From NCBI GenBank assembly GCA_016869515.1, contig VGDZ01000016.1, forward strand, positions 1-49,935: 49,935 bases of DNA. Reading direction: 5' to 3'. This DNA is from Alphaproteobacteria bacterium. Lineage in GTDB: Bacteria; Pseudomonadota; Alphaproteobacteria; VGDZ01. Below the pieces are notes generated by a model. The model searched no databases. It was not told the origin of the DNA and worked only from the letters and a program-made list of their open reading frames with translations. The first letter of the stretch is position 1. Every line of letters begins with the position of its first letter. The translations under genes were made by a program, and so were the position numbers. Below, one piece after another: positions 17,344 through 26,145 of the stretch.

Positions 17344-17482
17344 CTAGACCGCGATCGGTTCATAGGGAATCACGGCCGCGATTCCCTATGAACCGTGAAT
17401 CGCGGCCCAGAGCAGGATACGAGGGCATGATTCACGATCTGTCTTGAACTCTATGGTTCAAGACAGATCGATCATGCCCTAG
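17344..17482. repeat. Double-hairpin repeat family A, copy 4 (inverted, overlaps a gene end)
   Basis: This copy is inverted relative to copies 1-3 and bounded by CTAG on both sides (17344-17347 and 17479-17482). Hairpin 2 has perfect arms GGTTCATAGGGAATC/GATTCCCTATGAACC, and hairpin 1 has TTGAACTCTATGGTTCAA flanked by CTGTC/GACAG. Bases 17432-17482 encode the C-terminus and stop of the CoA-transferase gene. Confidence 0.88.
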
Positions 17483-18628
17483 TCCGAATTCTCGCAGGAT
17501 TGCGGCGCGATTTTGGTCAAGCCCCGGCGCCGGCGGACGGGTCGTGCTGTCCGCGAAAGCCGACAGCTTGATCGGATTTCCCGCCAGCACCAGACCGTGG
17601 GCCGTCGGATCGTCCAGGCTGACCGCCATGTTTCGTGCCTTGACTTGAGGTTCGGCCAGGGCCTGGGCGATGTCGTTGACCCGGGAGCATGGCACGCCGG
17701 CGGCGTCGATCGCGGAAAACCAGGCATCGACCGTGCGGTTGGCGAGGCTGCGTTCGATTTCGACGGTCAGGGCATCGACATGATCGACGCGCAGGGCATT
17801 GGAGGCAAAGCGCGCATCCTTCGTCAACTCGGGTCGACCGATAGCCGACGACAGCCGGCGGAACAGATCGTCATTGCCGGCGGCGATGACGATGTAGCCG
17901 TCGGCGGCGGCGAAGGCCGAGAACGGCGCGATGGTCGGATGCCGCGCGCCCAACGGCCCGGGCACTGTCCCGGTCGCGGCGTAGCGGACGACGGCGTTTT
18001 CAAGCAAAGCGATCTGGCCGTCCAGCATGGCGACGTCGATCATGCTGGCCTGGCCGGTGCGCTCGCGATGGTAAAGCGCGCTCGACAGACCCAGCGCCAT
18101 GAACAGACCCGCGCCGAGATCGCCGATCGGGACCCCGGCCCGCACCGGCGGTCCGCCGGGATGGCCGGTCAGGCTCATCACCCCGCTCATGGCCTGGGCG
18201 ACCATGTCGTAGGCGGCGCGCTGGCGCAGCGGCCCGGTCTGGCCGAATCCCGAAATCGCGGCATAGATCAGGCGCGGGAACCGCGCCTGCAACGAGGGCC
18301 AGCCGTAACCCAGCTTGTCCATCACGCCGGGGCGGAAATTCTCCACCAGCGCGTCGGCGCGCGCCAGCAGGGCATCGAATATGCGGCGATCGTCGGCGGC
18401 CTTGAGATCGAGCGCGATCGATTCCTTGCCGCGATTGAGCGAAACGAAATAGCTCGATTGGCCGCCGACGAAGGGACCGAAAGCGCGCGCATCGTCGCCT
18501 TCGGGCGGCTCGACCTTGATCACCCGCGCCCCGAGTTCGGCCAGCATCAGTGTGCAGAACGGGCCGGCCAAGACCCGTGTCAAGTCGACGATCGCCAGTC
18601 CCGAAAACGGGCCGGTCGGCCGGTTCAC
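17432..18628 (-). CDS. CaiB/BaiF family (class III) CoA-transferase
   Basis: The 398-residue protein is a class III CoA-transferase, moving CoA between carboxylic acids through an enzyme-bound anhydride. The N-terminal FSGLAIVDLTRVLAGPFCT, the VENFRPGVMDKLG motif and catalytic Asp170 in GVPIGDLGAGLF all fit. The natural substrate cannot be read from sequence. The last 16 residues or so (from about GHDRSV on) come from repeat A copy 4; homologues normally end near the LREFGL sequence just before it, so the tail is an acquired extension. It lies downstream of the TAXI receptor gene, separated by repeat copy 5, and may belong with it functionally. Confidence 0.9.
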   Translation of the reverse strand: MNRPTGPFSGLAIVDLTRVLAGPFCTLMLAELGARVIKVEPPEGDDARAFGPFVGGQSSYFVSLNRGKESIALDLKAADDRRIFDALLARADALVENFRPGVMDKLGYGWPSLQARFPRLIYAAISGFGQTGPLRQRAAYDMVAQAMSGVMSLTGHPGGPPVRAGVPIGDLGAGLFMALGLSSALYHRERTGQASMIDVAMLDGQIALLENAVVRYAATGTVPGPLGARHPTIAPFSAFAAADGYIVIAAGNDDLFRRLSSAIGRPELTKDARFASNALRVDHVDALTVEIERSLANRTVDAWFSAIDAAGVPCSRVNDIAQALAEPQVKARNMAVSLDDPTAHGLVLAGNPIKLSAFADSTTRPPAPGLDQNRAAILREFGLGHDRSVLNHRVQDRS

Positions 18629-18811: not shown

Positions 18812-19786
18812 TCAACCCACCAGGCCCGAAGGGATGTTGAACCCCTTCTCCTTGTAGTAGCGCACGGCACCGGGGTGGAAGGGCAGGAAGGTATTGCGGC
18901 TCCAATTGGCGGCGATGGTTTCGACCGCGGCCGCGTGGCCCTTCACCATGACGGCGTTGTTGTCGAGGATGGTCTTGGTGACCTGGTAGGCCAGATCGGC
19001 GTCGAAATCCTTGTGGCAAATCCCGAAATTGTAGACGCCGATGGTCTTGTGATCGGCCGTCTGGGCCTTGTAGGTGCCCTTGGGAATCAGCGAGTCCGAA
19101 AGCTCGGGCATCGCCTTTTTCAAGGTCGCGATCTCGGCATCGGTGAAGGTGAAGAACCGCGCCGGCCGCTGCGCCTCGATTTCGCTGAAGGCGGCGATCG
19201 GCACGCCGGCGGCGAAGGCGAAGCAGTCGATCAGGCCGTCGCCCAACTGGCTGGCCATGTCCGAGCCCGAGCCGTTGCGGATGGTGACGTCGAGCCCCAG
19301 CGCCTTGAACATCAGCGGGAAATAGGTGCCGGGAGTGCCGGCGCGCGGCCCGACGCCGACCGTCTTCTTGTTGAGCTGGGCAACCGAGGCGATGCCGGTC
19401 TTCTCGGTGGTGATGAAATGGAACGGCGTGTCGTACATCGGAAACAGCGCGCGCACCTCGCGGTACTTGCGGCCCTTGGTCCATTCGCCGTCGCCGTTCC
19501 AGGCCTGCAGGGCGATGCCCATGGTGGTCATGCTCAGCTCGACCCGCTTGTCGCTGACCAGGATCAGGTTCTGGTTGGGGCCCTGGGTCTGCTGGGTCGA
19601 GGTGTTGATCCCCAGCTTCTCGGTCAGCAACGTGGCGACCACGCCGCCATAGATGAAATAGGTGCCGCCGATCGAGGCGGTCCCCAGGGTCAGCGACTTG
19701 GGCTGGGCGTGCGAGGCGCCGAACGTCAACGCGCCGGACGCGGCGGCAAGGCCGGAAAGGGCGGCGCGGCGGGTGATGCGGGTCAT
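18812..19786 (-). CDS. TAXI-family TRAP transporter solute-binding protein
   Basis: The 324-residue periplasmic receptor has a twin-arginine-like signal (MTRITRRAALSGLAAASG, cleavage near SHA-Q) and the TAXI hallmarks: LTLGTASIGGTYFIYGGVVA, AELSMTT-like ligand contacts and GVGPRAGTPGTYFPLM. TAXI receptors feed 4-carbon and other carboxylates, including glutamate or 2-oxoglutarate, to a fused DctQM permease; no such permease is in the window. The start at 19786 overlaps the stop of a small lipoprotein gene (ATGA). An upstream extension of the frame is rejected because it would destroy the signal peptide. Confidence 0.92.
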   Translation of the reverse strand: MTRITRRAALSGLAAASGALTFGASHAQPKSLTLGTASIGGTYFIYGGVVATLLTEKLGINTSTQQTQGPNQNLILVSDKRVELSMTTMGIALQAWNGDGEWTKGRKYREVRALFPMYDTPFHFITTEKTGIASVAQLNKKTVGVGPRAGTPGTYFPLMFKALGLDVTIRNGSGSDMASQLGDGLIDCFAFAAGVPIAAFSEIEAQRPARFFTFTDAEIATLKKAMPELSDSLIPKGTYKAQTADHKTIGVYNFGICHKDFDADLAYQVTKTILDNNAVMVKGHAAAVETIAANWSRNTFLPFHPGAVRYYKEKGFNIPSGLVG

Positions 19787-19956
19787 TGCGATCGCTCCAT
19801 GTCGAGGAATTCCTTGATCGGAGACTCGGTCCACTTGCCGAACTCGTGGAACGCCATGGCAATGGGTCGCCAGGAGGCGGTCAACTGGCTCTCGAAAGTG
19901 CCTTGGGTGCAGCCGACGATCAAAGGCAGGATGGCGACGGCGAGCCAGCGGGACAT
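19783..19956 (-). CDS. Small predicted lipoprotein coupled to the TAXI receptor
   Basis: This is a 57-residue open frame on the minus strand, ATG at 19956, TGA at 19785-19783. Residues 1-15 form a lipoprotein signal (MSRWLAVAILPLIVG) with a LIVGC lipobox, acylated Cys16, and a short mature part with FHEFGKWTESPIKEFLDMERS. Its stop overlaps the TAXI gene start by 4 nt, the pattern of translational coupling. No known family was recognised; short mature lipoproteins upstream of TRAP receptors have not, to my knowledge, been described. The ribosome-binding site (GGA about 10 nt upstream) is weak, so expression needs testing. It diverges from the ABC ATPase gene at 20041. Confidence 0.65.
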   Translation of the reverse strand: MSRWLAVAILPLIVGCTQGTFESQLTASWRPIAMAFHEFGKWTESPIKEFLDMERSQ

Positions 19957-20040: not shown

Positions 20041-20670
20041 ATGGTGCGCGTGGACGGATTGCGGCATGCCTTCGGCAGCCGTCAGGTGCTGGCGATCGAC
20101 CGCTGGCAGGTGGACAGGGGCGAAGCCTGGCTGGTGCGCGGCGCCTCGGGCAGCGGCAAGTCGACCTTGCTGCACGTTCTTGCCGGGCTGTTGCGGCCTT
20201 CGGCCGGTCGGGTCGAGATCGACGGTCAGGACATCGGCGCCTTGAGCGACCGTCAGCGCGACGCGTTGAGAGGCGCCGCCATCGGCATCGTCTTCCAGAA
20301 CCTGCATCTCGTGCCCAGCCTGACCTTGCGCCAGAATCTGTCGTTGGCGCCGCTGATGGCGGGCCTGCCGTCGGCGTCGGCGGCGATCGAGCAACGGCTG
20401 GCTCGGCTGGGCCTCGGTCGGCGCGGCGACGATCGCCCGGCCCAACTCAGCCGGGGCGAGATGCAGCGGGTGGCGCTAGCGCGGGCGCTGATCAACCGGC
20501 CGAAGCTGCTCTTGGCCGACGAGCCGACCGCCAGTCTCGACGACGTCAACACCGACCTGGTCGCCACCATGCTGATCGAACAGGCCGCCGAGGTCGGGGC
20601 GGCGCTGGTGGTGGCCACCCATGACGCGCGCATCGCGCCCCATTTCGCCAAGGCGTTGACGCTGTCATGA
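20041..20670 (+). CDS. ABC transporter ATP-binding protein (LolD/MacB type)
   Basis: The 209-residue ATPase has Walker A GASGSGKST (residues 34-42), the signature LSRGEMQRVALARAL, Walker [13 protein letters not shown] and an H-loop in VVATHDARI. Its size and sequence type match the LolD/FtsE/MacB class that powers FtsX-like permeases. The ATG at 20041 is preferred, though a TTG at 20008 is in frame and neither has a strong ribosome-binding site. Its stop overlaps the permease start (ATGA). With the permease and DUF3299 gene it resembles the zinc-depletion operon PA4064-PA4066 of Pseudomonas aeruginosa (from memory), but no Zur box was seen upstream. Confidence 0.88.
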   Translation: MVRVDGLRHAFGSRQVLAIDRWQVDRGEAWLVRGASGSGKSTLLHVLAGLLRPSAGRVEIDGQDIGALSDRQRDALRGAAIGIVFQNLHLVPSLTLRQNLSLAPLMAGLPSASAAIEQRLARLGLGRRGDDRPAQLSRGEMQRVALARALINRPKLLLADEPTASLDDVNTDLVATMLIEQAAEVGAALVVATHDARIAPHFAKALTLS

Positions 20671-21836
20671 CGCTGTTCGAGGTCGGATACGCCTATTGGC
20701 GGCACAAGCGGTTGGCGGCGGCGCTGACCGTGCTGTTGACCGCGTTGGGCGTGGCGATCGCGACCGCCGCCTTGGGCCTGGCGGAACAGTTGACGGCGCG
20801 CGCGGCGCGCGATGCCCGCGGCATCGATCTGGTGGTCGGCGCCAAGGGCAGTCCGCTGCAGTTGATCCTGTCGGCGGTGTTCCATGCCGACGTGCCGACC
20901 GGGAATATCGCCCTCGGCGAGGCCGAGACCCTGCAGCGCCACGCCTTGGTGCGTTTCGCCATTCCGCTGGCGCTAGGCGATTCCGTCGGCGGCTTTCGCA
21001 TCGTCGGCACCACACCGGACTTGATCGCGCATTACGGCGGGCCCATGGCCTCGGGGCGGATGTTCGGGTCGAGCATGGAGGCCGTGCTCGGCGCCGAGGC
21101 CGCCCGGAAACTGCGGGCCGGTCCCGGCGATCAGTTCATTGGCGCGCACGGCATGGCCGAGGGCGGGCCCGCGCATCACGATCATCCCTACGAGGTCGTG
21201 GGCGTGCTGGCGCCGACCGGGACGGTGTTGGACCGGCTGGCGTTGACGCCGATCGAAAGCGTGTGGGACGTGCATGCGGCGCATCAAGGACCGGCGCCCG
21301 AGCGCGAAATCACGGCGCTTTTGATCGGCTACCGCACCCCGCTGGCGGCGGCCTCTTTGCCGCGCCAGATCAATACCGCCAGCCGCATGCAGGCAGCCTC
21401 GCCGGCGTTCGAGATCGCCCGGCTTGCGGCGCTGATGGGTGGCGGGCTGGACGCGCTGCGCGGATTGGCGGCGGTGCTGCTGGCGGCGGGCGCTCTGGCG
21501 ATGCTGGCGGCGCTGGTGGCGGCGCTGGACGAGCGCAAGACCGACATCGCCGTGATGCGCGCCCTGGGCGCCTCTCCCGGGCGGGTGATGCGGTTGATCC
21601 TGGGCGAGAGTTTCGCCCTGGCCGCGATCGGCGCCGTGCTGGGACTGGCGTTCGGCCACGGCGCGCTGGCGGCGATCGCCTGGCAAGCGCCCGGCGCCGC
21701 GCTCGATCCCTGGATGCCGATCGCCGAAGAGGGGTGGATTGCCGTCTTGGCGATGGCGCTGGGACCGGCCGCGGGGCTGTGGCCGGCTTGGCGAGTCTAT
21801 CGCCAGGACGTGGCGCGGACTCTGTCGGAGGGGTAG
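20667..21836 (+). CDS. FtsX-like ABC transporter permease
   Basis: The 389-residue permease has one N-terminal membrane helix (about residues 18-40), a large periplasmic domain (about 45-270) and three C-terminal helices in an FtsX domain with MRALGASPGRVMRLILGES, the coupling motif of MacB-like transporters. The periplasmic part contains DLVVGAKGSPLQLILSAVFH and a His-rich GPAHHDHPYEVVG stretch, which could touch metal, an inference only. The start overlaps the ATPase stop. Such systems move lipoproteins or extract envelope substrates rather than import small molecules. The downstream DUF3299 gene starts 40 nt later. Confidence 0.88.
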   Translation: MTLFEVGYAYWRHKRLAAALTVLLTALGVAIATAALGLAEQLTARAARDARGIDLVVGAKGSPLQLILSAVFHADVPTGNIALGEAETLQRHALVRFAIPLALGDSVGGFRIVGTTPDLIAHYGGPMASGRMFGSSMEAVLGAEAARKLRAGPGDQFIGAHGMAEGGPAHHDHPYEVVGVLAPTGTVLDRLALTPIESVWDVHAAHQGPAPEREITALLIGYRTPLAAASLPRQINTASRMQAASPAFEIARLAALMGGGLDALRGLAAVLLAAGALAMLAALVAALDERKTDIAVMRALGASPGRVMRLILGESFALAAIGAVLGLAFGHGALAAIAWQAPGAALDPWMPIAEEGWIAVLAMALGPAAGLWPAWRVYRQDVARTLSEG

Positions 21837-21876
21837 GGGCTTGCGCCGACGGTGCCGGAGTCCTAACTCTAGGGCC

Positions 21877-22347
21877 ATGAAATCCGCTCTTGCCGCCATG
21901 GCGCTGCTGGCGTTGGCGCCTTTCGCCATGGCATTCAGCCAGTCGCAGGCGACGCTGCCGGCCTCGGCCGACCGCGTCGTCGAAAAGGCGGGCGCCTTGT
22001 CGTGGAGCGTGCTGGAGGCGGTCGAAGAAGTGCCCACCGAAGGCGATCGCATGGTGCCGAAGTTCAGCGACAAGATCCTGGCGCTGGACGGCAAGGAAGT
22101 CACCCTGTTCGGATTCATGCTGCCGCTCGATCAGTCCGAGCGGCAGCGCCAATTCCTGCTCTCGGCCTATCCCTCGCACTGCCCGTTCTGTCTGCCCGGC
22201 GGCGCCAACCTGATGGTCGAGGTGCTGGCGCCCAAGGGCGTCAAGTTCACCTTCGATCCGGTGACGGTGAAGGGTCGCTTCGCGCTGCTCAAGGACGATC
22301 CCAGCGGCCTGTTCTACCGCCTGGGCGAGGCCGTGTCGCTCCAGTAG
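21877..22347 (+). CDS. DUF3299 periplasmic protein
   Basis: The 156-residue protein has a Sec signal peptide (MKSALAAMALLALAPFAMA) and a DUF3299 domain with DGKEVTLFGFMLPLDQSE and the conserved CPFC of YPSHCPFCLPGGANLMVEV. The function of the family is not established; the Cys pair suggests metal binding or redox chemistry. It follows the ABC ATPase-permease pair, the same order as in Pseudomonas zinc-starvation operons. It converges on the SDR gene with only 3 nt between stops, so there is no room for a terminator. Confidence 0.88.
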   Translation: MKSALAAMALLALAPFAMAFSQSQATLPASADRVVEKAGALSWSVLEAVEEVPTEGDRMVPKFSDKILALDGKEVTLFGFMLPLDQSERQRQFLLSAYPSHCPFCLPGGANLMVEVLAPKGVKFTFDPVTVKGRFALLKDDPSGLFYRLGEAVSLQ

Positions 22348-22350
22348 TTT

Positions 22351-23211
22351 CTATTCCAGCCAATCCAATTTGGTCGCGCCCGGGAAGCCGCGGAAGCGCG
22401 GCGCCGGTTCGTGCTCGGGCACGGGAAAGGTATGGCGGTGGTTGGGCACGCCGCCATCGACCCGCAGCGTCACGCCGGTGACGAAGCCGGCCGCCTCGGA
22501 CAATAGGAACGTCACCGCCGCCGCCACCTCGGATTCGTCGCCGAAGCGCTTGAGCGGCACCGCCTGGCGCAGCGCCTTCATCCGGCCGCGGTTCTCGACC
22601 GGATAGCTTTCCAGGCCCGAGGACTCGATCCAGCCCGGCGCCACGGCGTTGACCCGGATGTTGAACCGCGCCCACTCGCTGGCCGCGGTCTCGGTCAGGT
22701 TGACGACGCCGGCGCGGGCGGCGCCGGAATGGGCCATGCTCGGCATGCCGTTCCAGAAATCGGCGACGATGTTGACGATGGCGCCGCCATGCTCGCCCAT
22801 CCATTGCCGCTGCGCCTCGCGGCTCATCAGAAAGGCGCCGGTCAGGTTGTTGCGCACCACCGCCTCCCAGCCGCGCAGGCTGATGGCCTCCAGCGGCGCC
22901 GCGAACTGGCCGCCGGCATTGTTGACCAGGCAATCGAGCCGGCCGAAAGCCGCGAGCACGGCCTTGACCGCGGCCGCGACTTGGTCCTCCTCGCGGATGT
23001 CGCAGGCGAAGCCCCGCGCCGCGCCGCCGTCGGTTTCGATTTCGGCCGCAACCTTGTCGAGGCGCTCTTGGCGCCGGCCCAACAGCGCCAGTTTGGCGCC
23101 AAGCGCCGCCAGCTCGTGGGCAATGCAGCGGCCGATGCCGCTGCCGCCGCCGGTGACGATGGCGATCCGATCCCGGAACAGGCCGGGCCGAAAGGCGCTG
23201 CGATAGCTCAT
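22351..23211 (-). CDS. SDR-family oxidoreductase (enoyl/dienoyl-CoA reductase-like)
   Basis: The 286-residue short-chain dehydrogenase has the NAD(P)-binding [12 protein letters not shown] motif near residue 20 and the NNAGG motif. The usual catalytic Tyr-X-X-X-Lys is not apparent: the corresponding stretch reads [19 protein letters not shown]. That pattern recalls the 2,4-dienoyl-CoA and trans-2-enoyl-CoA reductase branch, where active-site residues diverge. It probably reduces an acyl-CoA or similar carbonyl. Its start overlaps the tctA stop by 4 nt, making it the last gene of the ten-gene operon. Substrate unknown. Confidence 0.85.
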
Positions 23212-24707
23212 GCTTTGCTCCCGGCGTTGGCTCGCGCCCGACGCCACAGCACCGGGCCGATCAGCAGGGCGAGCGCGATCAGCAACAGGCTTAGCGAGAT
23301 CGGCCGCGTCACGAACACCCACAGATCGCCCTGGGCGATCTGCACGGCGCGGCGGAACTGGACCTCGGCCATGGGGCCGAGGATCATGCCGACGATCACC
23401 GGCGCCAAGGGCACGTCGAGGCGCCGCATGATCAGGCCCAGCACGCCGCAGGCGGTCATCACGCCGACATCGAACAGCGAGCGGTTGACGCCATAGACCC
23501 CCAACGCCGCGAACAGCAGGATGCCGCCGTGCAGCCAGGGCGCGGGGATATAGAGCAACCGCGCCCACAGCCCGGCCAGCGGCAAGTTCAACACCAACAG
23601 CATGGCGTTGCCGATGAACAGGCTGGCGATCAGCCCCCACACCAGATCGGGCCGCGTGCCGAACAGCAGCGGGCCGGGCTGGAGGCCGTATTGCTGGAAC
23701 GCCGCCAGCATGATCGCGGCCGTGGCGGAGGTCGGAATACCCAGGGTCAGCAGCGGCACCAGCACGCCGGCGACGGCGGCGTTGTTGGCGGCCTCGGGTC
23801 CGGCGACGCCCTCGATCGCGCCGTCGCCGAATTCCTCGGGCCGCGGCGAAAGCCGCTTTTCGGTCTGATAGGAGATGAAAGTCGGAAGCTCGGTGCCGCC
23901 GGCGGGAACGGCGCCGAGCGGAAAGCCGATCGCGGTGCCGCGCAGCCACGGCTTCCAGGAGCGCGACCATTCGGCCGCGGTCATGCGCGCCGGCCCGTCG
24001 AGCGGCGTCACGGTCGATCCGCCCGCGCGCGGCAACGTTGCCTGGTAGAGCGCCTCGCCGACCGCAAACAGCCCGACCACGACCACGGTGATGCCGATGC
24101 CATCGAGCAGGTCGAGCTGACCGAAGGCGAAGCGGGCGGCGCCGGTCTGCTGGTCGATGCCGACCAGGCCCAGCGCCAAGCCTATGAACAGCGCCAGCAG
24201 CCCGCGCAACAGCGACGAGCCCAGCAGCGAGGACACGGCGACGAAGGCCACGCACATCAGCGCGAAATAGTCCGCCGGCCCGAACAGCAGCGCCAGCTTG
24301 ACCACTTCGGGCGCGACCAGCGCCAGCATCGCCGTGCCGATCACGCCGGCGACGAAGGAGCCGATGGCAGCCGTGGCGAGGGCGGCGGGCGCGCGGCCCT
24401 TGCGCGCCATGCGATGGCCGTCGATGGTGGTGACCAGCGATCCGGTCTCGCCCGGAGTGTTGACCAGGATGGCGGTGGTCGAGGAGCCGAACATGGCGCC
24501 GTAATAGATGCCGCCGAAGATCACGAACGAGGCCACCGGGTCGAGCTTGTAGGTCACCGGCAGCAACAGCGCGATGGTCAGCGCCGGTCCGATCCCCGGC
24601 AAAATGCCGATCAGCGTGCCGCACAGCACGCCGACGAAGGACCACATCAGATTGACCGGGTTGAGGGCGACGCCGAAGCCGCCGGCGAGGGACTGCAGCG
24701 CCTCCAT
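23208..24707 (-). CDS. tctA: Tripartite tricarboxylate transporter, large permease TctA
   Basis: The 499-residue membrane protein is TctA of the TTT family: the large permease with about 10-12 helices and the signature [24 protein letters not shown], and a second glycine-rich motif [24 protein letters not shown]. With TctB and TctC it imports citrate-like tricarboxylates or other carboxylates using an ion gradient. The ATG at 24707 lies 3 nt after the tctB stop, and its own stop overlaps the SDR start. Which carboxylate is moved cannot be told. Confidence 0.95.
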
Positions 24708-24710
24708 CGA

Positions 24711-25166
24711 TCAGAACGCCGGTCCGGGCAAATTGAGGCCGAGGCCGTAGACGAAGCAGACGAAGACGATTCCCGCGATGACCAAGCCGACGGCCAAATT
24801 GCGCCCCAGGCGCATCGCGCCGAAACCGCGGGCGACAGCCGCGAACAGGACCCCGGCGCCGACCACGAAACCCGCGGTCTCGACCAGCGCGGCAAAAGCC
24901 AACAGCCCCCCCAGGATCCATCCGATGGACCGCAAGGCGTCGGATGCGCGCGGCTCCTCGGCGATTGCGGCGCGACCGCTCAGCGCCGACCACGCCACCA
25001 ACCCGCCAAGCGCGGTCAAGCCAAACATTACCACCAGCGGAAACAGCCTTGGCCCCAGCAACGGGTCGACCACGCGCACCGGGATCGAAAACGCGTGCCA
25101 ACCGAGCAGCGCCCCGGCCAGGCCCAGCGCCGCGGCGAAGGCCGCCAGCTTGCCAGCGGCGCTAAT
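24711..25166 (-). CDS. tctB: Tripartite tricarboxylate transporter, small permease TctB (non-canonical start)
   Basis: The product is a typical TctB of about 151 residues with four membrane segments (LAAFAAALGLAGALLGW; LFPLVVMFGLTALGGLVAW; WILGGLLAFAALVETAGFVVG; LVIAGIVFVCFVYGLGL) and the conserved GPRLFP. In this frame there is no ATG, GTG or TTG between the tctC stop (25189) and the first helix. The next canonical start upstream, at 25322, is deep inside tctC and would add a non-homologous Ser/Arg-rich arm. An ATT at 25166 gives the family's length; a CTG at 25148 is another option. A sequencing error is also possible. Confidence 0.75.
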   Translation of the reverse strand: MSAAGKLAAFAAALGLAGALLGWHAFSIPVRVVDPLLGPRLFPLVVMFGLTALGGLVAWSALSGRAAIAEEPRASDALRSIGWILGGLLAFAALVETAGFVVGAGVLFAAVARGFGAMRLGRNLAVGLVIAGIVFVCFVYGLGLNLPGPAF

Positions 25167-25188
25167 CGCCGCCGCCCCTGCGCCGGCG

Positions 25189-26145
25189 CTACTTGCCGAT
25201 GCCGACCGCGGCCAGGATTTCGCCGACCTGCTTCTGCTCGTCGGCGATGAACTTGGCGAAGGCCGGGCCGGGCAGGTAGTTGTTCTCCCAACCGCGCTCC
25301 TTGAGCTTGGCCTTCCAGGCATCGGACTTGACCATGCGGTCGACCAGCTGGGCGACGGCGTCGCGGTCGGAATCCTTCAGCTTGGGCGCCGCCATGATGG
25401 CGCGCCAATTGCCGATGACGACGTCGAGCCCGGTCTCCTTGAAGGTCGGCGCGTCGATTCCCGGAATGCGCGCGGCGCTGGAGACGCCGATGATGCGAAG
25501 CTTCTTGGCCTCGACCAGCGGCATGAACTCGGAGGCGCTGTTGACGCCGAGGGTGACGTGATTGCCCAGGATCGCCGCCAGCGACTCGCCGCCGCCGGAA
25601 TGGGCGACGTAGTTGATGCGCGCGGCATCGGCGCCCGCCGCCTTGGCCAGCAGCGCCGCGGTGATGTGGTCGGTGCCGCCGGCCGAACCGCCGCCCCAGG
25701 ACACCGCCGCGACGTTGGCGCGCAGCGCCGCCGCCAGATCCTGCATGGTCTTGATCTTGGATTCGGGCGTGACGGCGATGGCCTGCCATTCCGAAGTCAG
25801 GCGCGCGATCGGCGTGACGTCGTTGAGGCCGATCGGCGATTTGTTGGCGATCACCGCGCCGACCATCACCAGCCCCGAGACCATCCATTGCTTGGAATCG
25901 CCCGAACGGCGCACGAACTGGGCGATGCCGCGGGTGCCGCCGGCGCCGGCCACGTTTTCGACCTGGACCGATTTGACGATGCCGGTGGCTTGCAGCACCT
26001 CCTGCATGGCGCGCGCCGTGCCGTCCCAGCCGCCGCCCGGCGCCGCCGGCGCCATGATGGTGAGTTGGTCCTGGGCCAATGCCGCAGGCGCGGCCATTGC
26101 CGCACCCAAAGCCGCCGCCAGCAGCGCGCGCACGATCTTGGTCAT
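25189..26145 (-). CDS. tctC: Tripartite tricarboxylate transporter solute-binding protein TctC
   Basis: The 318-residue Bug/TctC receptor has a Sec signal peptide (about residues 1-24, ALA-QD), the [17 protein letters not shown] phosphate-loop-like ligand motif, [12 protein letters not shown] and the [20 protein letters not shown] region typical of the family. It binds a carboxylate in the periplasm and delivers it to TctA/TctB. A GGAGGAG ribosome-binding site precedes the ATG at 26145. It lies 18 nt after the FAD dehydrogenase gene. Confidence 0.95.

Follow-up and report, generated by a model that had tools for sequence, protein, structure and literature searches.

A TAXI receptor gene overlapped at its start by a putative small lipoprotein gene, with a likely permease encoded elsewhere in the genome

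Introduction

TAXI-type solute-binding proteins serve as receptors of TAXI-TRAP transporters, of which VcGluP/VcGluQM is an example (PMC11574862). A TAXI receptor without an adjoining TRAP permease has been described for the TAXI-GltS system of Bordetella pertussis, in which the receptor itself is a lipoprotein and is translationally coupled to gltS (PMC12344293). A larger share of TAXI than of DctP-type receptors appear to be lipoproteins, and membrane anchoring of TAXI receptors thus has a precedent (PMC12344293).

Here we analyse a TAXI receptor gene that is preceded by a short frame with a lipobox, located in a stretch of 49,935 nucleotides, in the following referred to as the window. The short frame, its distribution among relatives and the whereabouts of a permease for the receptor are described, and the possible roles of its product are compared.

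Results

Structure of the short frame

The short frame (P0002) is located on the minus strand at positions 19783 to 19956 and encodes 57 amino acids; read from 19956 to 19783 it translates as MSRWLAVAILPLIVGCTQGTFESQLTASWRPIAMAFHEFGKWTESPIKEFLDMERSQ, followed by a stop codon. No such frame exists on the plus strand at these positions, where the reading is unrelated. The product is predicted to consist of a signal peptide (residues 1 to 15), a lipidated Cys16 and a mature part of 42 residues, whose profile is moderately amphipathic. The lipoprotein signal is MSRWLAVAILPLIVG followed by the cysteine, with predicted cleavage between IVG and C: R3 lies in the n-region, residues 5 to 15 are hydrophobic, and the lipobox pattern [LVI][ASTVI][GAS]C is present as IVGC (I13-V14-G15-C16, codons at 19909 to 19920, minus strand), with threonine as the +2 residue. 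No match to the product was found in Pfam, NCBIfam or PHROGs. As can be read directly from the sequence, the TGA of the short frame and the start codon ATG of the TAXI gene overlap as ATGA at 19783 to 19786 on the minus strand. The preliminary description had reported a short frame with a lipobox and an ATGA overlap on the TAXI start; both are present and its coordinates are right, and the strand, which it did not give, is the minus strand.

Coding potential of the short frame

All six frames of the 49,935-base window were scanned for frames of 35 to 130 codons that satisfy the lipoprotein-signal rule, and the short frame was the only one to pass, whereas order-3 random windows contain on average 0.2 such frames each. 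Its codon score is +21.9 bits, which corresponds to the 25th percentile of real in-frame pieces of 57 codons. Since 7.6% of stop-free off-frame pieces reach the same score, codon usage favours a coding function without settling it. The GC content by codon position is 0.50/0.48/0.83. The ribosome-binding site of the short frame is weak, with -3.7 kcal/mol compared to -5.6 kcal/mol for that of the TAXI gene. We regard the short frame as probably a real gene. The earlier proposal of a genuine short lipoprotein gene, of a kind that is readily overlooked and that is coupled to the TAXI gene, finds support at the sequence level.

The TAXI receptor and its neighbourhood

The receptor gene (18812 to 19786, minus strand) encodes a TAXI-family solute-binding protein of 324 amino acids with the signal peptide MTRITRRAALSGLAAASGALTFGASHA. 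Its assignment to the TAXI family follows from the match to NCBIfam TIGR02122, which scores 201 bits over residues 7 to 315 with a cut-off of 84.35; in addition, it matches Pfam NMT1_3 (PF16868) with 257 bits as well as seven solved TAXI-type chains. An approximate Shine-Dalgarno-like GGAG of the TAXI gene (-5.6 kcal/mol, as given above) is located at 19791 to 19798 on the minus strand. Because this GGAG lies within the short frame, translation of the receptor is probably coupled to that of the short frame.

A CoA-transferase family III gene is located downstream of the TAXI gene (17432 to 18628, minus strand), and a similar gene was found near only four of 80 TAXI relatives. Genes for a TctA-TctB-TctC tripartite tricarboxylate transporter are encoded on the minus strand at 23208 to 26145, approximately 3.4 kb from the TAXI gene. 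A divergent cluster on the plus strand (20044 to 22347) encodes an ABC ATPase, an FtsX/MacB-like permease and a DUF3299 protein, and resembles zinc-regulated clusters. A connection of the small lipoprotein with this cluster was considered and rejected, since no lipoprotein of this kind was found upstream of the relatives of the cluster.

Distribution of the short frame

Homologues of the small lipoprotein were searched for in genomes that all lie outside the order of the source organism. None was detected in 385 genomes of Alphaproteobacteria, in 394 genomes of Pseudomonadota (a set that overlaps with the 385), in 42 genomes bearing the closest TAXI genes, or in plasmids and viral contigs. The best non-self match among the 385 Alphaproteobacteria had an E value of 0.003, occurred in one genome and was interrupted by a stop. 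Weak matches (E 0.003 to 1 per genome) that were inspected were interrupted by stops, located inside long unrelated frames or without a matching lipobox and context, and were rejected as chance matches.

The regions upstream of TAXI genes were scanned in two partly overlapping sets of 80 and 24 relatives (about 100 in total, 40 to 78% identical to the receptor), with the window itself as positive control for the second set, and no lipoprotein frame was found upstream of any of these TAXI genes. A conserved small lipoprotein gene upstream of TAXI genes in related genomes, for which the preliminary description had proposed a search, is thus absent beside about 100 relatives, and the homologue searches were likewise empty. 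The small lipoprotein most likely represents a lineage-restricted gene whose translation is coupled to that of the receptor gene in a split TAXI-TRAP transporter. It is no general component of this transporter, and its only demonstrable tie to the receptor consists of its position and probable co-expression.

A permease for the receptor

The preliminary description had noted that no DctQM permease is encoded near the TAXI gene, and indeed no fused TRAP permease was found on the contig of the window (C16). The genome contains five fused TRAP permeases above the curated cut-off, on contigs C2, C6, C7, C9 and C59, as well as six TAXI genes above the curated cut-off. C2, C7, C9 and C59 each bear a fused permease together with a TAXI gene. 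The permease on C6 (7417 to 9195; locus L117) has 657 amino acids and is encoded on a contig without a TAXI gene, with response-regulator and Hpt-like frames upstream. Another TAXI gene (C11, 29412 to 30386; locus L154; 236 bits), located on a contig without a match to a fused permease, may likewise encode an unlinked receptor.

In the relatives, the situation is different from that in the window: a fused TRAP permease is encoded directly downstream of the TAXI gene in 72 of 80 cases, and at the 36 loci in which the permease could be aligned over more than 500 residues, the permease match begins 10 to 226 nucleotides after the TAXI match. In the remaining eight, the contig ends just after the TAXI gene (L017, L030) or the relatives are more distant members (40 to 54% identity). 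For all 72 partner permeases, the best match among the five permeases of this genome was the one on C6, which led by 107 bits or more wherever a second permease matched. Across the relatives, the identity to the TAXI receptor of the window and the identity to the C6 permease are correlated (Spearman 0.73, n=36), which in part reflects shared phylogeny.

The simplest reading of these matches is an apparently conserved pair of TAXI receptor and C6 permease, with the two genes having become separated in this lineage. The receptor, described as an orphan before, is probably not one, with a likely cognate permease in the same genome. It is possible that the separation is an assembly fault, since the genome is a MAG in 166 contigs; however, both the TAXI gene and the permease gene are located well inside their contigs.

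Discussion

The short frame could also be a non-gene, that is, a reading frame that is open by chance within the TAXI leader and whose resemblance to a lipoprotein is accidental. The empty homologue searches and the weak ribosome-binding site would be in line with this, and among random leaders matched in composition, 9% contain an open frame of 50 or more codons that ends near the TAXI start. However, frames with a lipobox, counted from 30 codons upwards, end there in only 0.2% of such leaders, and the sole lipoprotein-like frame of the window with its gene-like codon usage is unlikely to be a chance product. Alternatively, the frame might mainly act as a leader: its translation would determine how strongly the receptor is expressed, and the peptide itself would have no role. 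The location of the TAXI ribosome-binding site inside the frame and the overlap of its stop with the TAXI start would suit such a leader, but a bare leader requires neither a lipobox nor gene-like codon usage, which makes this explanation quite unlikely.

A further explanation gives the small lipoprotein a function alongside the receptor, as a membrane tether or as a factor that passes the receptor on to a permease. The ATGA overlap and the lipobox are the only features of the locus that speak for this, together with the precedent for anchored TAXI receptors (PMC12344293). On the other hand, TAXI relatives with 60 to 78% identity are found without the small lipoprotein, and since the likely cognate permease is encoded on C6 of the same genome, neither a tether nor a foreign permease is needed. 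By the sorting rule of E. coli, the +2 threonine found here would suggest an outer-membrane location, away from the permease. We thus consider a partner function very unlikely, and the earlier suggestion that the lipoprotein anchors the receptor or feeds another permease is not borne out: no sequence evidence for a tether and none for an alternative permease was found, and about 100 relatives have the receptor without the lipoprotein. We also regard it as highly improbable that the receptor, once cut off from its permease gene, has gained a newly arisen lipoprotein of 42 residues that anchors it or alters substrate delivery.

Our preferred reading, which we hold with moderate confidence as a whole, is that of a real, lineage-restricted lipoprotein gene coupled to the TAXI gene of a split TAXI-TRAP transporter. 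The small lipoprotein would be exported and receive a lipid at Cys16, and cleavage would leave approximately 42 residues. Its gene precedes the TAXI gene and contains the ribosome-binding site of the latter, and translation of the two would be coupled via the ATGA overlap. The receptor would belong to an ordinary TAXI-TRAP transporter, with the fused permease encoded on C6 and both genes kept adjacent in relatives. Since the receptors of relatives occur without the lipoprotein and a likely transporter partner is encoded elsewhere in the same genome, the locus looks ordinary.

Neither the distant permease nor the short lipoprotein alters current understanding. A TAXI receptor that looks like an orphan may have its permease encoded far away in the genome, a pair that annotation by genome context would miss, and the short lipoprotein adds to the lineage-restricted small genes that may escape gene callers.

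The small lipoprotein resembles other small bacterial lipoproteins without a known family in its Sec signal, its lipobox and the shortness of its mature part, and it matches nothing in Pfam, NCBIfam or PHROGs. With TAXI-GltS of B. pertussis (PMC12344293), the locus shares a TAXI receptor without adjoining TRAP permease and, probably, translational coupling within the locus; here, however, the lipoprotein is a separate short protein encoded ahead of the receptor, and the permease that comes closest is of the fused TRAP type and encoded elsewhere in the genome. The similarity to TAXI-TRAP transporters such as VcGluP/VcGluQM (PMC11574862) consists of a TAXI receptor, as identified by profile, and the right kind of fused permease in the genome, the difference being that receptor and permease are encoded at separate loci here, whereas their genes are adjacent in relatives.
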